Assembly: GCF_017813355.1 (NCBI RefSeq)
Contig: NZ_JAGIYZ010000004.1
Span: forward strand, 62,001-126,000
Origin: Roseomonas nitratireducens
GTDB lineage: Bacteria; Pseudomonadota; Alphaproteobacteria; Acetobacterales; Acetobacteraceae
DNA length: 64,000 nucleotides
Reading direction: 5' to 3'
The number at the start of each line of letters is the position of its first letter. Within the stretch, counting starts at the first letter, position 1. The translations under genes and the position numbers were made by a program. The notes beneath the pieces are model-generated. The model did not search any database, was not told the origin of the DNA, and saw only the letters and a program-made list of their open reading frames with translations. This document shows, piece after piece, positions 13,802 through 23,349 of this stretch.

Positions 13802-14500
13802 TCAGTTCGTCGCCGCCTCGGCCAAAGCCCGCTCGAGCATGGCCGGCGCGCGGATGACGAGCGCCCCCCTCGTCCGTTCCAGCACGCCGTCGCGCAGCAG
13901 CCGCGCGATCTCGCGCGAGACGGCCTCCCGGCGCGCCCCGATGCGCAGCGCGATGATCTGCTGGACCGGTGGCGGGGAGATCGCCCGCTCCCCGCCCGCG
14001 CCGGCCGGGTTCGAGCGGCGCAGCAGCTCGGCGTAGAGCCTGTGCCGGATGTCCAGGCTCGTCAGTTCGAGCATGCGCGCATTCGTCTCGCGGATGCGGC
14101 TCGTCAGCACCTGCATCAGCCTGCGCGAAAGGTCGGGCGCCTCGGCCATCAGCGCCATGAAGGCGGCGCCCGGCAGGCGGCAGATGCGGCTGCGATGCAG
14201 GGCGATGACGGATGCCGACCGCGGCGCGCCGTCGATCGCGGCCATCTCGCCGAAGAAGCGGCCGGCGGGGACGTCGTCGAGGATCAGCTCGCGCCCGCCC
14301 GGCGTGCGCACCGAGATGCGCACGCTGCCCGAGAGCACGAAGAAGACGTCGTCGGACGGGTCGTCGAAGTCGAGGATCAGGCGGCCTGCCTCGGCGGTCA
14401 GCCAGTGCGCGCGCCTGCCGTGGCGAAGGGCGAGCTCGGGCGCGATGCCGCTGAAGAAGGGGATGACCGCCAGGGTCTCGGCGCGGCGGGGGGCGTTCAT
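13802..14500 (-). CDS. Crp/Fnr-family transcriptional regulator with cNMP-binding signature
   Basis: A 232-residue regulator with an N-terminal cyclic-nucleotide-binding beta-roll and a C-terminal winged helix. The phosphate-binding cassette keeps Gly84-Glu85 (FFGE) and Arg94-Ser95 (PRSA), which correspond to Gly71/Glu72 and Arg82/Ser83 that hold cAMP in E. coli CRP. It has no FNR-type N-terminal cysteine cluster. The helix-turn-helix lies in LRIGARREAVSREIARLL. It diverges from the binding-protein/kinase/cyclase operon, and a CRP-like site lies between them. The start is uncertain: ATG 14521 also fits and neither has a clear ribosome-binding site. Confidence 0.88.
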   Translation of the reverse strand: MNAPRRAETLAVIPFFSGIAPELALRHGRRAHWLTAEAGRLILDFDDPSDDVFFVLSGSVRISVRTPGGRELILDDVPAGRFFGEMAAIDGAPRSASVIALHRSRICRLPGAAFMALMAEAPDLSRRLMQVLTSRIRETNARMLELTSLDIRHRLYAELLRRSNPAGAGGERAISPPPVQQIIALRIGARREAVSREIARLLRDGVLERTRGALVIRAPAMLERALAEAATN

Positions 14501-14884
14501 GCCCGCGGGCCGGCCGGCCATGTCGCCAGGCTGCGGCCGATGGCCTTCGCGTCTCCCATGCCATGCCTCCCACGCCGGACGCCGGGAGGGTGCGATCAGC
14601 CCGCCGGATCCGATGTGCGATTTGACACACAGTGATGGCGCGCCGCCAGGGCAGGCTTGGGGCCGAGGACGAGGCAGGGAGGCTTTCCCCGATGCATGCT
14701 GGGTTGCCGCGCCGCGCGTGGCCGAACGGAACTCGCGCGCCCGCCGCGGCGCGGTCATGCTGTGCCCGTCGGCCTCGGCACGGGGCCGGCGCGGCGACGC
14801 ATGGCGAGGGCACGGCCGGGCCAGGGCGATGACCGGGGCAACGGCGCCGCTCGCGCGCGGCCCGGGCGCATGAGGAACGGGCAT
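14501..14884. other. Divergent promoter region between Crp/Fnr gene and sensory operon
   Basis: About 380 bases serving both transcription units. It holds a CRP-like palindrome at 14614-14629 overlapping a TTGACA hexamer. No -10 box stands out in this GC-rich DNA, and no small gene is supported. Confidence 0.55.
14614..14629. promoter_or_regulatory. CRP-like operator, TGTG-N8-CACA
   Basis: TGTGCGATTTGACACA matches the outer bases and spacing of the CRP consensus TGTGA-N6-TCACA; the inner A/T pair is not kept. TTGACA at 14622-14627 could be a -35 element, so a bound regulator would overlap it. The site is about 115 bases upstream of the Crp/Fnr start and 255 upstream of the operon start. Confidence 0.45.
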
Positions 14885-15853
14885 ATGCTTCGGCGCCGGA
14901 TGCTGCTGGCCGGGTCGCTCGCCGCAACGGGCGCGATGCCCGCGCGCGGGCAGGGGCGCGTGGCGCGCCTCGGCCTGCTGTCCTCCGGGCAGATCTCGAT
15001 CGACCAGTTCCGGCAATGGGGCCTGCCCGAACTGGCGCGCGAAGGCTTCGTCGAGGGCCGGACGCTGCAGTTCTTCGCCCGCTCCTCCGATGGCGATCCG
15101 GCACGCCTGGCGCCGCTGGCCGCCGAGGTCATCGCGGCGCGACCGGATGTCGTGATCGCGGTGTCGAACCCGGTGGCCCATGTGCTCCGCGCGCGCGATC
15201 CCGGCCTGCCCATCGTGATGGGCTTCGCGGGCACCGATCCGGTGGCCGATGGCCTCGCGGCAAGCCTGGCGCGTCCCGGCGGCAGCGTCACAGGCGTGGT
15301 GATGCTCGCCGAGGAACTCGACCTGAAGCGGCTCGAGATGCTGCGCTTGGCGCTGCCGGGGGCGCGGCGGATCGGCTACCTCGCGGGCGCCACCTTCGTG
15401 CCGTCGCGCGTGCCGGCCATGGTGGCGGCCGCGGCGCGCATGGGCGTGGAACTGGTGGCGGTGAGCGCGGGCGGCCCGGAAAGCCTCGGCCCGGCCTTCG
15501 CCGCCCTGCGGAGCGCGGACGTGCACGCCGTCGTCGTCGGTTCCTTCCCCGGCTTCTCGACCCATGCCGCCGCGCTGGCCGCCCTGGCGCGCGGGTCCCG
15601 CCTGCCGACGATCTGCGAATGGCGCACCATGGCGGAAGCCGGCTGCCTGATCAGCCATGGTCCCGTGAACGAGGAGCTGCGCCGCCAGGTCGCGCGCCAT
15701 GTCGCGCGCATCCTGCGAGGCCAGCCGCCCGGCGAGATCCCGATGTTCCAGGCCGAGCGCTTCGAGACCGTGGTGAACCTGCGCACCGCGCGGGAGATCG
15801 GCGTCGAGGTGCCCGCGCTCGTGCTCGCAGCGGCGCAGGAGGTGATCGAATGA
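14885..15853 (+). CDS. ABC-type substrate-binding protein (PF04392 family), copy 1
   Basis: The first of five tandem paralogues, 322 residues, with a twin-arginine-like signal (MLRRRMLLAG). Family markers are SLARPGGSVTG near residue 132, the AGCLISHG variant of GGLMSYG, and a C-terminus ending EVIE. The family consists of two-lobed periplasmic proteins related to TrpX and usually serves an ABC importer, but no permease or ATPase follows. ATG 14885 was chosen with GAGG upstream; ATG 14870 is in frame. The stop overlaps the next start as ATGA, and the last codons supply a very strong ribosome-binding site (AGGAGGTGATC, 15837-15847) for copy 2. Confidence 0.88.
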   Translation: MLRRRMLLAGSLAATGAMPARGQGRVARLGLLSSGQISIDQFRQWGLPELAREGFVEGRTLQFFARSSDGDPARLAPLAAEVIAARPDVVIAVSNPVAHVLRARDPGLPIVMGFAGTDPVADGLAASLARPGGSVTGVVMLAEELDLKRLEMLRLALPGARRIGYLAGATFVPSRVPAMVAAAARMGVELVAVSAGGPESLGPAFAALRSADVHAVVVGSFPGFSTHAAALAALARGSRLPTICEWRTMAEAGCLISHGPVNEELRRQVARHVARILRGQPPGEIPMFQAERFETVVNLRTAREIGVEVPALVLAAAQEVIE

Positions 15854-16821
15854 TCGCGCGGCGTGCGCTGCCGCTGATCGCCTTGCCGGGCCTGGCGCAT
15901 GCGCAGGCACGTCCGCGACGCATCGCGCTCATCGTCTCGAGCGCCGAAGGCGATCCCGACGCGAATGGCCGCGCCGCCGCGCTGCGCGAAGGGCTGCGCG
16001 CCCTCGGCTGGATCGAGGGCCGCAACATCGAGATCGTCCACCGCTGGGGTGCCGGCGACCTCGCGCGCGCCGAGGCCCACGCGCAGGAGATGGTCGCGCT
16101 CGCGCCCGACATCATCGTCTCGAACGGCACGCCGCAGCTGGCGGCGCTGCAACGCCACAACCGCGCGATCCCGGTCGTCTTCGTCGTCGTCGTGGACCCG
16201 GTGGGCGCGGGCTTCGTCCGCAGCATGGCCAGGCCCGGCGGCCATGTCACCGGCTTCGCGACCTATGAGCCGGAGCTGGGCGGGAAGTGGCTCGACCTGC
16301 TGCGCGAATTCGACCCGGCGATGCGCCGCGTCGCGATCGTGAACGATCCCGACTTCAGGGGCTTCGCGGGCCTCGCGCGGCATGTCCACGAGCGTGCCGC
16401 CGCGATCGGCCTCGCCAGCGTCGACATCCATTTCCGCCGGCCGGAGCAGCCGGTCGAGGCGCTGCTGGCGGAGGCCGCGGCGGGTGGCGACACGGGCATC
16501 ATCGCCATGCCCACGGCGCTCAACCTGCTCGCGCGCGCGCGGCTGATCGACGCCGCGCGCGAGACGCGCATGCCGGCGATCTACCCGTTCCGGCCCTTCG
16601 TCGATTCCGGCGGCCTGATGTCCTACGGGTTCGAGCCGCTCGACCTGTTCCGCCGCAGCGCCGCCTATGTCGACCGCATCCTGCGCGGGGAGGCGCCGGG
16701 TGACCTGCCCGTGCAGCTCCCGACGCGCTTCGAGTTCTTCGTCAACCGGCGGACCGCCCGCGCGCTGGGCCGGGACTTCCCCGACCTGCTCCTGGCCCGC
16801 GCCGACGAGGTGATCGAATGA
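15850..16821 (+). CDS. ABC-type substrate-binding protein (PF04392 family), copy 2
   Basis: A 323-residue paralogue with a short signal peptide ending AHAQA. It carries SMARPGGHVTG near residue 127, GGLMSYGFE near 255, and the family C-terminal block FEFFVNRRTARALG...ARADEVIE. It overlaps copy 1 and copy 3 by four bases each, so expression is translationally coupled. Divergence from its sisters in the ligand lobes suggests a different ligand. It most likely works in the periplasm as a sensor input for the downstream kinase, since no importer is present; that is inference. Confidence 0.88.
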   Translation: MIARRALPLIALPGLAHAQARPRRIALIVSSAEGDPDANGRAAALREGLRALGWIEGRNIEIVHRWGAGDLARAEAHAQEMVALAPDIIVSNGTPQLAALQRHNRAIPVVFVVVVDPVGAGFVRSMARPGGHVTGFATYEPELGGKWLDLLREFDPAMRRVAIVNDPDFRGFAGLARHVHERAAAIGLASVDIHFRRPEQPVEALLAEAAAGGDTGIIAMPTALNLLARARLIDAARETRMPAIYPFRPFVDSGGLMSYGFEPLDLFRRSAAYVDRILRGEAPGDLPVQLPTRFEFFVNRRTARALGRDFPDLLLARADEVIE

Positions 16822-17789
16822 TCGCGCGGCGCGCCCTGCCCGCGCTTCTGCTCGCCCCCGGCGTCGCGCGGGCGCAGCGCCGGCCGCCGACCGTCGCCTT
16901 CGTCGGCTTCGGCTCGGTCGAGGCCGACCGCCTCTCGGTGATCGCCTTCCGCGAGGGCATGCAGTCCCAAGGCCAGGTGGAAGGGCGCGGCTGGCGCTTC
17001 GAACATCGCCACGCGGACGGGGACACCGCGCGCGGGCTTGAGATCATCCGCGACTTCGCCGCGATGCCGGTGGATGTCTTCCTGGTGCCCGGCCCTTCGG
17101 CGGCGCGTGCGGTGCGGCGCGCCACCGCCATCCCCCTCGTCGCCGTCGGGCTGCCGCCGGTGCAGGGCGACCCGGAGCTCTTCGCCTCCCTCGCGCGGCC
17201 CGGCGGGTCGGTCACCGGCTTCGCGAGCTTCGGGGAGGAGATGGCCGCCAAGCGCGCGGAGCTGCTGCGCGAGATGATCCCGGGCCTCGCCACGATCGGC
17301 GTGCTGCACAACGCCACCGACCCGACCTTCGACGCCTGGGGCCGCATGACCGCGGCCTCCGCGCGCGGCATGGGGCTCGACACGCTGCTCCTGCCGCTCA
17401 CGAGCCCCGATCCGGCGGCGCTGCAGGACGCAATGGCGGCGCTGGCGGCGCGCGGGGGGCGCGCGCTGATCGTGGTGCGCGACTTCCTCACCAGCTCGAT
17501 GATCGAGGCGATCATCGCGACCGCCATGGCGCACCGCATCGCCGTGGTGGCCGACCAGGCGCGCTTCGCCCAGGCCGGCGCGCTGATGAGCTACGGGGCG
17601 AGCCTGCCCGACCTGTTCCGCCGCGCCGCCGGCTATGTCGTCCGGATCCTGCGGGGGGAACGGCCGGGTGACCTTCCGGTCCAGCTGCCGACCGCGATCG
17701 AGTTCGTGGTGAACCTGCGGACGGCGCGCGCGCTCGGCCTGACGGTTCCGCACGCGATCCTGGCGCGGGCGGAGGATGTGATCGAATGA
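16818..17789 (+). CDS. ABC-type substrate-binding protein (PF04392 family), copy 3
   Basis: A 323-residue paralogue with the signal peptide MIARRALPALLLAPGVARAQ, nearly the same N-terminal codons as copy 2, consistent with local duplication. Markers are SLARPGGSVTGFAS near 130, GALMSYGAS near 255, RILRGERPGDLPVQLPT and a C-terminus ending DVIE. It starts inside the stop of copy 2 (ATGA), preceded by GAGGTGATC at 16807-16815, and its own stop overlaps copy 4. The ligand is unknown. Confidence 0.88.
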   Translation: MIARRALPALLLAPGVARAQRRPPTVAFVGFGSVEADRLSVIAFREGMQSQGQVEGRGWRFEHRHADGDTARGLEIIRDFAAMPVDVFLVPGPSAARAVRRATAIPLVAVGLPPVQGDPELFASLARPGGSVTGFASFGEEMAAKRAELLREMIPGLATIGVLHNATDPTFDAWGRMTAASARGMGLDTLLLPLTSPDPAALQDAMAALAARGGRALIVVRDFLTSSMIEAIIATAMAHRIAVVADQARFAQAGALMSYGASLPDLFRRAAGYVVRILRGERPGDLPVQLPTAIEFVVNLRTARALGLTVPHAILARAEDVIE

Positions 17790-18823
17790 TCGAGGCCATG
17801 CAGATGGAAACGAGGGGCAGCAGCATGCAACGACCCGACCGACAGCCCCGCCTGCCCGCGCGCCGCGCGCTGCTCGCGGCCCTCGCCGCGGCGCCTGCGC
17901 TGCCGCTCCACGCGCAGACCCTGGCCGCGCGGCCGCTGCGCATCGGCTACATCGTCAACGGGCCGGAGCGGACGATCTTCGAGGAGAAGTTCGAGCTGGG
18001 CATGCGGGAGAACGGCTATGTCGTCGGGCGCAACCTGACGATCGACTACCGCCACCAGCTTCGCCCGGACCACGATCTGTCGGACGTCATGCGGTCCTTC
18101 GTCGAGGCGCGGGTGGATGCGATCGTCTGCTCGACGCGCGGCGGCGTGCTCGCGGCGCGCGCGGCCACCACCACCATCCCCATCGTCTTCGGCGCGACGC
18201 GCGACGCGATCCAGGACGGGCTGGTGCAGAGCCTGGCGCGGCCCGAGGGCAACGTCACCGGCCAGTCCTTCCATGCCGGCGAGCTGACCGCCAAGCGCAT
18301 CCAGCTGATGCGGGAAGCCTTCCCCGAGGCGCGCCGCTTCGCCGTGATCTTCAACATCTACTACCCCTCGCAGATCCAGATCGACGAGGCGGAGCGGGCG
18401 CAGGCGGCGCTCGGCATCGAGCTCGTCTTCCAGGGCATCGCGGTGCCCGAGGGGCTGGAGGATGCCTTCGCCGACCTCAGGCGGCGCGGGATCGCGGCGC
18501 TGTTCGTCGTCTCCGACGTCTCGACCATCACCAGCCGCGTCCGGCTCGGGGAGACGGCGTTGCGCCACCGCATCCCCATGGTCATGTCGAACAAGCGCTA
18601 CCTGACGGGCGGCGCGCTGATGAGCTACGGGCCGGATATCAGCGAGGGCTTCCGCCGCGCCGCCCGCCAGGTGGTGCGCGCGGCGAACGGCACGCCCATC
18701 AGCTTCCTGCCGGTGGAGAACCCGACGCATTTCGAGTTCGTCATCGACCTGCGCGCGGCACGGACGCTGGGCGTCGAGATCACCCAGCCGATGCTGGCGC
18801 GGGCGGACGACGTGATCGAATGA
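17786..18823 (+). CDS. ABC-type substrate-binding protein (PF04392 family), copy 4
   Basis: A 345-residue paralogue with a longer N-terminus. The signal peptide core is RRALLAALAAAPALPLHAQ. Markers are SLARPEGNVTGQS (Glu replaces the first Gly), GALMSYGPD and an ending of DVIE. Two starts are possible: 17786, which overlaps copy 3 as ATGA and has GGAGG ten bases upstream, or ATG 17825 preceded by GAGGGG. The first is used here. The second would give a more normal signal peptide. The closest relatives may be the urea- or amino-acid-linked members, but no ligand can be assigned. Confidence 0.88.
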   Translation: MIEAMQMETRGSSMQRPDRQPRLPARRALLAALAAAPALPLHAQTLAARPLRIGYIVNGPERTIFEEKFELGMRENGYVVGRNLTIDYRHQLRPDHDLSDVMRSFVEARVDAIVCSTRGGVLAARAATTTIPIVFGATRDAIQDGLVQSLARPEGNVTGQSFHAGELTAKRIQLMREAFPEARRFAVIFNIYYPSQIQIDEAERAQAALGIELVFQGIAVPEGLEDAFADLRRRGIAALFVVSDVSTITSRVRLGETALRHRIPMVMSNKRYLTGGALMSYGPDISEGFRRAARQVVRAANGTPISFLPVENPTHFEFVIDLRAARTLGVEITQPMLARADDVIE

Positions 18824-19782
18824 TCGGCCGCCGCGCCGCCCTAGCGCTGCCGCTGGCCGCGGCCGCCCGCGACGCCGACGCGCAGCCGCGCCGCCCGCGG
18901 CGCATCGGCTACGTCCATTCGGTGAGCATCGGGCCGGCGAACAACGCGACGCGCATCATCGGCGGCCATCTCCGGCAGCGCGGCTTCGTCGACGCCCAGA
19001 CGCTGTTCCTGCGGGCAGGGCGGGGTGACCCGGCGGTCCTGGAACGCGCGATCGAGGAACTGCTCGCGCACGATCCCGGCGCGCTGATCGCGGTCGGGGC
19101 GCCGGCGGTCTTCGCGGCGGCGCGGCTGGGCCGCGGCGTGCCGGTCGTGGCCGTCGACCTCGAGACGGATCCCGTCGCCGCCGGCCTCGCCGCGTCGGAT
19201 GCGCGGCCGGGCGGCCATGTCACCGGCCTGTTCCTCGACCAGCCCTCGCTCGCGGGCAAGTGGCTCGACCTGCTGCTCGAACTCGCGCCGGCGACGCGGC
19301 ACGTCGTCTTCCTGTGGGATCCGGCGACCGGCCCCCACCAGCGCGACGTCGCCGTCGTGCAGGCGGGGCGCCGGCGCCTGACGGCCGCGGTGGTCAACCC
19401 CTTCGATACGGATGCGCTGCCATCCGCGCTGGCGCGGGCCGCCCGCGGCACCGTCGGTGTCGTCATGCTCACCGCGCCCGGGATCACGGAGCATCTTGGA
19501 AGGATCGGCGGGATGCTCCAGGCTATGGGCGTGCCAGGCGTGACCTTCCTCGCGAACTTCGTCGGGTCGGGCTTCGCGATGGGCTACGGCGTGGACCAGC
19601 CGCACTATTTCGCCCGCGCCGCGGTGCTCGCCGAGCGCATCCTCGACGGCGAGGATCCGGGCGCCATACCGATCGAGCGGCCGACCCGCTTCCGCTTCGC
19701 GATCGACCTGCGGGCCACCGGCACGCTCGGCCTCGCGGTGCCGCACACGCTGCTCGCCCTGGCGGACGAGGTGCTGGAATGA
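18820..19782 (+). CDS. ABC-type substrate-binding protein (PF04392 family), copy 5
   Basis: The most diverged of the five paralogues, 320 residues. The LARPGG motif reads SDARPGGHVTG, GGLMSYG reads GFAMGYGVD, and the C-terminus is EVLE. The signal peptide is short and ends near ADAQ. It overlaps copy 4 and the histidine kinase gene by four bases each, so it joins the binding-protein block directly to the signalling block. Its position and divergence make it a candidate for the copy that touches the kinase sensor domain, though any of the five could. Confidence 0.87.
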   Translation: MIGRRAALALPLAAAARDADAQPRRPRRIGYVHSVSIGPANNATRIIGGHLRQRGFVDAQTLFLRAGRGDPAVLERAIEELLAHDPGALIAVGAPAVFAAARLGRGVPVVAVDLETDPVAAGLAASDARPGGHVTGLFLDQPSLAGKWLDLLLELAPATRHVVFLWDPATGPHQRDVAVVQAGRRRLTAAVVNPFDTDALPSALARAARGTVGVVMLTAPGITEHLGRIGGMLQAMGVPGVTFLANFVGSGFAMGYGVDQPHYFARAAVLAERILDGEDPGAIPIERPTRFRFAIDLRATGTLGLAVPHTLLALADEVLE

Positions 19783-21719
19783 AGCGCCGCGGCCTGTCCC
19801 TCGCCCAGCGGCTCACCCTCGCCTTCCTCGGCCTGGTGGGCGCGGTGCTGCTGGTCAACGGCAGCATCTCCATGTGGTTCGCCTATCGCGAGGCGACCGA
19901 GGCCGCCGTGCGCGTCGAGCAGGAGAAGGCGGATGCGGCGGCGGACCGCGTCGCGCAGTTCATCGCCGAGCTCGAGCAGCAGATCGGCTGGACCACGCGG
20001 GCCGACTGGGCGCGCGTGCCGATGGAGCAGCGCCGCTACGACTTCATCCGCCTGCTGCGCCAGGCGCCGGCGATCAGCGAGGTGCTGTATGTCGACGGGG
20101 AGGGGCGCGAACGTCTGCGCCTCTCGCGGCTCGAGCCCGATGTCCTCGACAGCGGCACCGACCTGTCCGCCGATGCGCGCTTCCGTGGCGCGCGGGAGAA
20201 CCGCGTCTGGTACGGCCCGGTCACCTTCCGCCGCGGATCGGAACCCTACATGGCGCTCGCCATGGTCCATGCCGGGCGCAATCCCGGCGCCACCATCGCC
20301 GAGGTCAACCTGAAGCTGATCTGGGAGGTCATGACGGCGATCCGCGTGGGCGGCACGGGCTATGCCTTCGTCACGGACACGGCGGGGCGGCTGATCGCGC
20401 ATCCGGACATGAGCCTGGTGCTGCGCGACACGGATCTGTCCGCGCTGCCGCAGGTGGCCGGCGCGATCGCCGGCGCGGGGGAACGCGTGCGCGCCGCGCG
20501 CGGCGTCGACGGGCGCGCGGTGCTGTCCGCCCATGCGACGATCCCGCGGCTCGGCTGGATCGTCTTCGTCGAACAGCCGACGTCGGAGGCCCTCGCCCCC
20601 GTCTATGCCGCGGCCTACCAGACGCTGGCGCTGCTCGCCCTCGGCGTCGTCGTCGCGCTGCTGGCCGGCGTCGTGCTCGCGCGGCGGCTGACGGGCCCGA
20701 TCCGCGCGCTCCAGGCCGGCGCGGAGCGGCTGGGCCAGGGCGACCTCGCGCAGCGCATCGATGTCGAGGCCAGGGACGAGATCGGCACGCTGGCCCTGCG
20801 GTTCAACGAGATGGCGGTGCGCATCCAGGACGCGCAGGAAACGCTGGAGGCGAATGTCGCGGACCGGACGCGGGAACTGGCCGAATCCCTCGATGATCTG
20901 CGGGCCGCGCAGGACCGGCTGGTGCAGACCGAGAAGCTCGCCTCCCTCGGCCAGCTCACCGCCGGCATCGCGCACGAGATCAAGAATCCGCTGAACTTCG
21001 TGAACAACTTCGCCGAGCTCTCGATCGACCTGCTGGCCGAGCTGCGCGACGCGATGGACCGCGCGGACGGCGCGATCGCGCCCGCGCTCCGCCTCGAGAT
21101 CGACGAGCTCTGCGGCATGCTCCGCGACAACCTCGCGAAGGTCACCGCGCATGGCCGGCGCGCCGACAGCATCGTGCGCAACATGCTCGCCCATTCGCGC
21201 GAGGGAAAGAGCGAGCGCCGCCGCGTGGACATCAACGCGCTGGTCGAGGAATCGCTCAACCTCGCCTGGCATGGCGCGCGCGCGGAGCGGCCCGGCTTCA
21301 ACGTCGCGATCGACAAGCGCCTGGACCCGGCGGCCGGGCAGCTCGATCTCTATCCGCAGGAATTCACGCGCGTGCTGCTCAACCTGTTCGGCAACGCCTT
21401 CCACGCCGTGCAGCAGAAGGACAAGGCCGGCTTCCAGCCGCATCTGCTGGTCTCCACCCAGGCGCGGGCGGAGGAGGTCGTCGTGACCGTCCGCGACAAC
21501 GGCACCGGCATTCCCGAAACCGTCCGCAGCCACATCTTCGAACCCTTCTTCACCACGAAGCCGCCCGGCCAGGGGACGGGGCTCGGCCTCTCGCTCTCGC
21601 ACGACATCGTCGTGCAGCAGCATGGCGGGCGGATCGAGGTCGCGACCGCGCCCGGGGAATGGACCCAGTTCAACGTGACGCTGCCGCGCATGCCGGCAGA
21701 GCAGGGGCGTGCGGCATGA
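19779..21719 (+). CDS. Sensor histidine kinase with periplasmic Cache-type domain
   Basis: A 646-residue membrane kinase. TM1 spans about 12-34, a roughly 245-residue periplasmic region with double-Cache features (VLYVDGEGRERLRL near 102; GYAFVTDTAGRLIAHPD at 194-210) follows, and TM2 spans about 281-300. A HAMP linker at 301-355 and a coiled coil lead to the dimerisation helix with phospho-acceptor His399 (AHEIKNPL). ATPase motifs are NLFGNA (535-540), DNGTGIP (573-579), FEPFFTTK and GQGTGLGL (598-605). It overlaps binding protein copy 5 and the receiver gene by four bases each. Phosphotransfer to the two receivers encoded downstream is the expected role. Confidence 0.93.
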   Translation: MKRRGLSLAQRLTLAFLGLVGAVLLVNGSISMWFAYREATEAAVRVEQEKADAAADRVAQFIAELEQQIGWTTRADWARVPMEQRRYDFIRLLRQAPAISEVLYVDGEGRERLRLSRLEPDVLDSGTDLSADARFRGARENRVWYGPVTFRRGSEPYMALAMVHAGRNPGATIAEVNLKLIWEVMTAIRVGGTGYAFVTDTAGRLIAHPDMSLVLRDTDLSALPQVAGAIAGAGERVRAARGVDGRAVLSAHATIPRLGWIVFVEQPTSEALAPVYAAAYQTLALLALGVVVALLAGVVLARRLTGPIRALQAGAERLGQGDLAQRIDVEARDEIGTLALRFNEMAVRIQDAQETLEANVADRTRELAESLDDLRAAQDRLVQTEKLASLGQLTAGIAHEIKNPLNFVNNFAELSIDLLAELRDAMDRADGAIAPALRLEIDELCGMLRDNLAKVTAHGRRADSIVRNMLAHSREGKSERRRVDINALVEESLNLAWHGARAERPGFNVAIDKRLDPAAGQLDLYPQEFTRVLLNLFGNAFHAVQQKDKAGFQPHLLVSTQARAEEVVVTVRDNGTGIPETVRSHIFEPFFTTKPPGQGTGLGLSLSHDIVVQQHGGRIEVATAPGEWTQFNVTLPRMPAEQGRAA

Positions 21720-22114
21720 GCGTCCTGGTCCTGGTGGTCGACGACGAGCCCGACATCGAGGCGCTGTTCCGCCAGCAGTTCCGGCGCGACCTTCGCGAAG
21801 GGCGCTTCGAGATGGGCTTCGCCGGGTCCGGACCGCAGGCGCTCGGCCTCATCGCCGCCGCCGCCGGGCGGGACATCATCCTGCTGCTGTCGGACGTGAA
21901 CATGCCGGGCATGAGCGGCTTCGACCTCGTTGCCCGCGCCCGCACGCTGCGGCCCGACGTGCCGGTCGTACTCATCACCGCGTATGACGACCCCGGGACG
22001 CGCCTTCGCGCGGGGGAGAGCGGGGCGGAGGGGCTGATCCCGAAGCCTATCGACTTCGCCCTGCTGCGGGCGGAGATCGAGCGGCGCCTGCGCGCGCGGG
22101 AGGCGACGCCATGA
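21716..22114 (+). CDS. Single-domain response regulator (CheY-like receiver)
   Basis: A 132-residue stand-alone receiver. The acidic pair is Asp9/Asp10, the phospho-acceptor is Asp60 ([11 protein letters not shown]), the switch Thr is Thr88 and the lysine is Lys110 (KPID). It has no output domain. It overlaps the kinase stop and the next gene start by four bases each. It may act as a phosphate sink, a phosphorelay intermediate, or a protein-protein switch competing with the cyclase receiver for phosphate. Confidence 0.92.
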
Positions 22115-23349
22115 GCCTCGTCCTGGTCGTGGACGACGAGCCGGACCTGGAGGCGCTGATCCTGCAGCGATTCCGGCGGGAAGCGCGCGACGGGCGGCTC
22201 GCCTTCCATTTCGCCCGCGACGGGCAGGAGGCGCTGGAGCGCCTTGACGCCGCGCCCGAGACGGCGCTCGTGCTCGCCGACATCAACATGCCGCGGATGG
22301 ACGGGCTGACGCTTCTGGCCCGGCTGCAGGAGATGCCGGACCCGCCGGCGACCGTGATCGTCTCCGCCTATGGGGACATGGCGAATATCCGCACCGCGAT
22401 GAACCGCGGCGCCTTCGACTTCCTCACCAAGCCGATCGACTTCGCCGACCTCGAGGCGACGATGACGAAGACGCTGCGGCACGTGGCGGAACGGCGCGCG
22501 GCGGAGGCGCGGCGCATCGCCGCCGAACGGGCGCATGCCGCACTCGCGCGCTATTTCTCGCCCAACCTCGCGCGGCAGCTCGCGGATGCCGAGCGGTCGC
22601 TCGACCTCGGTGGCCAGCGGCGCGACATCACCGCCGTCTTCACCGACGTCGCCGACTTCACCGCGCTGGTGGAGGAGCTGGCGCCCGCCGCTCTTGCCGG
22701 CCTGCTCAACGCGTATCTGTCGGGCATCACCGACATCGTCTTCGCCCATGGCGGCACGGTCGCGAAGGTGATGGGCGACGGGATGCTGCTGCTGTTCGGC
22801 GCGCCGGACGAGCAGCCCGACCATGCGGCGCGCGCGGTGGCGTGCGCGCTGGCGATCGACGCCTTCGCCGAGGCCTTCCGCGCGGCACGCGCGGCGGAGG
22901 GAACCGGCTTCGGCGCGACGCGCATCGGCCTGCACAGCGGGCCGGCCCTGGTCGGCGATTTCGGTGGCGGGCGGCATTTCGACTACACGGCCTATGGCGA
23001 CACGATCAACGTCGCGGCGCGGCTGGAGGCGGCGAACAAGGCGCTTGGCACCAGGCTGCTCGCTTCCGCTTCCGTCGCCGCGCGCATCCCGGGCTTCCAG
23101 GGGCGCGGCGTGGGCGAATTGCTGCTGCGCGGCCGGACGGACGCCGTCGCCGCCTTCGAGCCGCTGACGTCGGACCGCGCGGCTTCGCCTGCCTTTTCCG
23201 CCTATGTCGGCGCGCTCACGCAGTGCCGCGTGGACCCGGCGGCGGCGCTGGAGGCGCTTGCGCGCCTCGCGGCGACGGGCGATGCGCTGGCGTCGTTCCA
23301 GGCCAGGCGGCTGGCCGCGGGCGGCGACGGGCCGATCGACCTGCGGTGA
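22111..23349 (+). CDS. Response regulator with class III adenylate cyclase output domain
   Basis: A 412-residue protein. The receiver covers 1-120 with acidic residues Asp8/Asp9, phospho-acceptor Asp57 ([10 protein letters not shown]) and Lys107. A helical linker (120-150) leads to a nucleotide cyclase domain (about 170-345). All class III catalytic positions are present: metal aspartates Asp179 (VFTDVADF) and Asp223 (KVMGDGM), base-selecting Lys219 and Thr293 (DYTAYGD), and transition-state Asn300 and Arg304. Lys/Thr is the bacterial adenylate cyclase pair, so cAMP rather than cGMP is expected. It is the last gene of the eight-gene operon and probably feeds the divergent Crp/Fnr protein. Confidence 0.93.

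Follow-up and report, generated by a model that had tools for sequence, protein, structure and literature searches.

Can a short palindrome lying between a gene for a Crp/Fnr-family regulator and a divergently oriented sensor-cyclase operon be recognized as an operator and, if so, which protein would read it and which of the two flanking genes or operons would it control? The question is raised by the sequence TGTGCGATTTGACACA (14614-14629, unstranded), the only exact TGTG-N8-CACA match in the window, that is, the whole 64,000-nt stretch of DNA analysed here.

The divergent locus and its palindrome

The palindrome lies between the Crp gene, whose ATG is at 14500 on the minus strand, and the first substrate-binding protein gene, which begins with an ATG at 14870 or 14885 on the plus strand. 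The first-pass annotation had described it as CRP-like, with CRP spacing, and as placed in the only intergenic region of the locus. Both points are borne out: the sequence is present as described, and the interval is the sole real gap in this divergent arrangement; from 15850 to 23349, the end of each operon gene overlaps the start of the next. An overlap with a TTGACA hexamer had also been pointed out; this overlap exists (14622-14627, plus strand) but is judged a coincidence, the hexamer being rejected as a -35 element because it is found in the window allele only and because the 24 nt separating it from the conserved -10-like element described below are too many. An Rfam scan of the intergenic region returned nothing above threshold and two matches at chance level. 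The statistics of the window alone are no proof that the palindrome is real, since dinucleotide shuffles of the window contain 0.27 copies of TGTG-N8-CACA on average and at least one copy in 24 of 100 cases.

The leftward gene (13802-14500, minus strand) encodes a Crp/Fnr-family protein of 232 aa with a cyclic nucleotide-binding domain (PF00027, E 7.2e-21) and an HTH_Crp_2 domain (PF13545, E 5.5e-9), both beyond cut-off. It is 26% identical to E. coli CRP, and its score of 63.1 bits against the NCBIfam model of the canonical global CRP (PRK11753) falls below the cut-off of 266. The phosphate-pocket residues G84, E85, R94 and S95 match G71, E72, R82 and S83 of E. coli CRP, and R191, E192 and R196 of the recognition helix align with R180, E181 and R185; both sets are invariant in five orthologues. 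The adenine contacts T127/S128 of CRP correspond to T139/N140 in the window protein and to A/N in four other aligned orthologues. The cyclic nucleotide ligand is likely to be cAMP; cGMP is a possible ligand because the residue equivalent to T139 is Ala in those four orthologues.

Rightward, on the plus strand, the operon begins with a periplasmic substrate-binding protein gene of the ABC_sub_bind family (14885-15853; PF04392, E 1.5e-35), followed by four further PF04392 genes (substrate-binding proteins 2 to 5, at 15850-16821, 16818-17789, 17786-18823 and 18820-19782), a sensor histidine kinase with the Pfam architecture dCache_1-HAMP-HisKA-HATPase (19779-21719), a single-domain response regulator (21716-22114; PF00072) and a receiver-class III nucleotidyl cyclase (22111-23349; PF00072 and PF00211). 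The cyclase combines the class III catalytic domain with the selecting Lys and Asp/Thr expected of an adenylate cyclase, here a Lys and a Thr, the latter within FDYTAYGD of the window protein. In an alignment of four orthologues the Lys is present in all and the Thr in three, with Ala in G006. These substrate-selecting positions suggest an adenylate cyclase; the same K and T pair is mutated in an inactive CyaC of S. meliloti (PMC10463352).

Rows of about 4 to 11 PF04392 genes stand ahead of the Cache histidine kinase in the window (14885-19782) and at loci L142, L042 and L139. No permease or ATPase gene was seen in the array of the window, and such arrays look like sensor inputs rather than parts of transporters. 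At one locus and its near-copy (G005, L042:10925-12042, and L061), the first gene of the array (SBP4-like) is interrupted by about 1.1 kb of inserted DNA, which falls between the promoter and the remaining operon. Loci almost the same as those of Roseomonas bins are present on contigs L060 and L061, which bear the labels Methylobacterium and Methylocystis; this points to mislabelled or mixed metagenome bins.

Conservation of the palindrome beside the regulator gene

Alignment of the same intergenic region from related genomes had been proposed as a check, and it was carried out on orthologous loci from Roseomonas and other Acetobacteraceae. Relatives were found by search with the Crp protein, the orthologues being 57-76% identical and adjoining the same divergent neighbour array; several are metagenome bins, some apparently mislabelled, and their genes were called with a simple codon-usage caller. 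After near-copies were collapsed, ten distinct loci were available (the window, G025, L058, G006, G017, G232, G413, G349, G298 and G227), all sharing a layout in which the Crp gene diverges from an ABC_sub_bind array, a Cache histidine kinase, a response regulator and a receiver-cyclase. Each of the ten divergent gaps contains one exact TGTG-N8-CACA; in G413, an extra gene stands between crp and the site, which still lies in the divergent gap. Plain MAFFT alignment misplaced the site because the intergenic flanks do not align, and the loci were therefore anchored on the site itself. The flanks anchored in this way are 23-49% identical, except in the close pair G025/L058 (78%), so the site cannot be put down to recent common descent. 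Since genomes hold just 6-22 TGTG-N8-CACA sequences each, a chance match within a gap of some 350 bp has a probability well below 1%. The Crp orthologues associated with the site form a single clade (support 100/96). Comparison with relatives thus lifts the palindrome to far more than chance would provide.

The motif of this family is TGTGCGAWWTCGCACA, preceded by A and followed by T or C (consensus A-TGTGCGAWWTCGCACA-T). In the window allele, the left half matches this motif perfectly and the right half departs from it at two positions. The first-pass annotation had taken the inner consensus bases as not kept and had allowed for chance on that account; this view did not hold up, as the inner bases follow the half-site of the family, TGTGCG, rather than TGTGA, and the site is conserved in all ten loci.

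Loci that retain the operon without a neighbouring Crp gene provide natural controls. Found through their cyclases (58-67% identity), they keep the histidine kinase, response regulator and cyclase, have no adjoining Crp orthologue, and in most cases contain one or two substrate-binding protein genes. The stretches read from them are entirely free of TGTG-N8-CACA. The best position weight matrix scores in the nine scorable control loci, 2.3-11.3 bits, are at the level of random sequence, as against 24.1-27.9 bits at loci with crp (24.1 in the window); the matrix was built from loci with crp, and hence only such null-level control scores are informative. In the sequences compared, presence of the site is shown to track strictly the presence of the Crp gene at the locus, and the palindrome is almost certainly a genuine binding site for the adjacent cAMP-type regulator.

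Predicted back-to-back promoters and the direction of control

When the ten loci are anchored on the site, a -10-like hexamer of the form xAnnnT recurs 21-22 nt past the palindrome on either side: toward the operon in all ten, with C in the first position throughout, and toward crp in nine, the exception being G232. At any other offset between 0 and 59 this pattern occurs in at most three loci, and a Markov simulation covering the 118 offset/side positions reached a maximum of five loci in 4000 runs. The predicted elements in the window are CAGGCT for the operon (14652-14657, plus strand, 22 nt past the operator) and CACCCT for crp (14587-14592, minus strand, 21 nt from it). Neither matches TATAAT well, and the crp-side elements are weaker than those on the operon side. 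Class II activator sites are positioned at -41.5 (PMC5957442). Because such centring leaves 21 nt between a 16-bp palindrome and the -10 hexamer, both sides display class II geometry. Starts predicted from the -10-like positions fall near 14664 (plus) and 14580 (minus), about 83-84 bp apart. For a symmetric class II double promoter, the open-access literature searched offered no direct precedent.

These features are best reconciled, with a probability of roughly 0.78, by a cyclic nucleotide-dependent Crp that would activate both divergent promoters as a class II activator, in a positive loop confined to the locus. The ligand-bound dimer, product of the adjacent gene, would sit on the palindrome at -41.5/-42.5 relative to both the leftward crp promoter and the rightward promoter of the sensor-cyclase operon. 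Phosphorylation of the receiver-cyclase would follow when the substrate-binding proteins and the Cache kinase sense a ligand; cAMP would then rise and Crp would bind, yielding more Crp as well as more sensor and cyclase. We infer from sequence that Crp physically binds, that it activates instead of repressing, that its ligand is cAMP and that signalling follows this order. Feedback from cAMP to the operon or to the regulator had been suggested previously; the conserved site favours such feedback, but the -10-like elements point to both targets rather than to one or the other. Counting against the favoured reading are the poor resemblance of the hexamers to TATAAT, the possible mutual exclusion of polymerases at the two promoters, the missing left -10-like element of G232, and the position of the orthologous Crp gene of G424, beside a different cyclase and with a site just downstream of the gene.

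The main rival is a one-sided or damped form of regulation, because the start sites, some 83-84 bp apart, would share one activator and their polymerases may compete, and because there is a pertinent case in E. coli, where CRP placed at -40.5 of a bidirectional promoter promoted transcription one way and prevented it the other way (PMC12825309). The Crp site would then activate the cyclase operon only, and repress or exclude crp, resulting in negative autoregulation. The weaker left -10-like elements, and their absence from G232, lean the same way. Against this, the left element keeps class II spacing in nine of ten loci, a spacing that a repressor site would not need, and the more distant Crp paralogues of G146, G094 and G075 also have sites with a -10-like element 21-22 nt toward crp. 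We regard such damping as unlikely, though plausible enough to be weighed seriously, and continue to favour activation of both promoters.

An apparently local regulator and its relation to known circuits

The 4.98 Mb genome that includes the window contains seven exact TGTG-N8-CACA sequences, versus one for the reversed control, and two of the seven fit the family motif; none of the six sites other than the operator is flanked on both sides by -10-like elements. Most genomes that bear the orthologue have a single copy of the strict motif, TGTGYNANNTNRCACA, located at the divergent locus; the exceptions are G000, with a second copy at C3:108308, G413, G298 and G227, which have TGTGCGAAAACGCACA instead, and G424, with one elsewhere. 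Among 30 genomes that lack a Crp orthologue the motif is rare, and no second copy was found in most of the other orthologue-bearing genomes. With the strict motif present about once per genome, the window Crp looks like a local regulator. A global CRP regulon was rejected on these genome-wide counts of seven and two.

It is very improbable that the site is recognized not by the product of the adjacent gene but by another Crp/Fnr paralogue or a CRP of global scope. A genome search did return ten matches to the window Crp, and the site is similar to the TGTG half-site of CRP in general; yet the site is present with the adjacent Crp gene and absent without it, genomes that contain just the paralogues seldom hold the strict motif, and many sites rather than one would be expected of a global CRP. 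A functionless chance palindrome can be dismissed, for although 24% of shuffled windows contain one TGTG-N8-CACA, this one recurs in ten of ten loci amid scrambled flanks and with two positioned -10-like elements.

Several related sequences were encountered elsewhere. The second family-motif match in the genome of the window, TGTGCCAACTCGCACA (G000 C3:108308-108323; L004:1501-1516), has a -10-like CACGGT at 21 nt, toward a gene whose product is secreted and weakly matches dienelactone hydrolase, and is a possible second Crp target. Two perfect TGTGA-N6-TCACA sites of the E. coli type (L007:1501-1516, equivalent to G000 C34:135467-135482, 9.5 kb right of the window; and L002:1501-1516, at C1:362952) lie 10-14 bp upstream of the start codons of an MFS transporter gene and a gene without a Pfam match, a position that fits a repressor or a regulator other than the window Crp. 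Crp paralogues are located about 2-3 kb from class III cyclase genes at G000 C2:97184-100893 and C6:57022-59865 (L038, L039), and Crp-cyclase linkage is found three times in this genome; no exact TGTG-N8-CACA occurs at the C2 and C6 loci. In G424 (L138), where the orthologous Crp gene follows a different cyclase gene, TGTGCTTTTTCGCACA lies 13 bp past the Crp stop codon, and the portion of the contig that was read does not include the array of substrate-binding protein genes. A separate clade of Crp paralogues (L171, L156, L178, L185 and L179) has palindromes of the TGTGCG-N4-CGCACA type 80-98 bp upstream of crp, and no -10-like element 21-22 nt toward crp.

More tentatively, and at somewhat less than even odds, the locus may exemplify a non-global CRP with essentially one operator per genome, its own half-site, TGTGCG, and a mirror-symmetric double class II promoter at which one dimer serves two opposed polymerases in turn. 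If so, promoter competition would determine how much regulator is made relative to sensor-cyclase, and the whole would constitute an insulated, self-contained cAMP switch driven by an array of periplasmic binding proteins. A locus-dedicated Crp with its own half-site would indicate how cells with many cyclases and Crp paralogues may separate cAMP signals, and in the symmetric layout nature provides a clean setting for finding out if a single activator is able to drive both promoters of a divergent pair or is forced to select one. What the analysis provides, from sequence alone, is an operator open to experimental test, a pair of predicted promoters and a proposed circuit that is complete from sensor to regulator.

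Among known systems, the paralogous Crp loci of Acetobacteraceae (among them G146, G094 and the clade of G082, G169, G222, G324 and G148) are similar in that several have TGTGCG-type palindromes upstream of crp; their Crp proteins, however, are 43-50% identical to that of the window, and the array of substrate-binding proteins, histidine kinase, response regulator and cyclase was not seen in the loci read fully. Clr of Sinorhizobium meliloti is likewise an alphaproteobacterial cyclic nucleotide-dependent Crp with the pocket residues G, E, R and S, but it recognizes the motif HGTYHCNNNNGRWACA, has many targets and is not divergent to one dedicated cyclase (PMC10127613). With the class II promoters of E. 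coli CRP (-41.5) the locus shares a 16-bp TGTG/CACA palindrome, conservation of R180, E181 and R185, and a -10 element at the expected distance. It departs from them in the inner half-site, where C replaces A, in the two predicted class II promoters on one site, and in its apparently local rather than global scope; of the canonical TGTGA-N6-TCACA, the outer TGTG-N8-CACA is kept and the inner A/T replaced.

The closest known circuit is that of CgrA and gcyB-gcyC in Rhodospirillum centenum, in which a cGMP-using CRP homologue with a genome-wide regulon (295 ChIP peaks) activates the cyclase-subunit genes gcyB-gcyC, itself and a divergent gene from one TGTGA-N6-TCACA site upstream of the gene cluster (PMC4681086). 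Common to both are a CRP homologue and a single palindrome and, as a prediction for the window, activation of cyclase genes and of the regulator itself in a feed-forward loop. On the other hand, the CgrA gene shares a cluster with the cyclase genes, whereas the window crp is divergent; the half-site here is TGTGCG, in a motif nearly unique in the genome; and the input appears to be of a two-component/binding-protein kind, unlike that of the CgrA circuit. The predicted circuit shares its logic with that of CgrA, and what is new relative to CgrA is the half-site, the divergent crp, the two-component/binding-protein input and the predicted near-single-site regulon.
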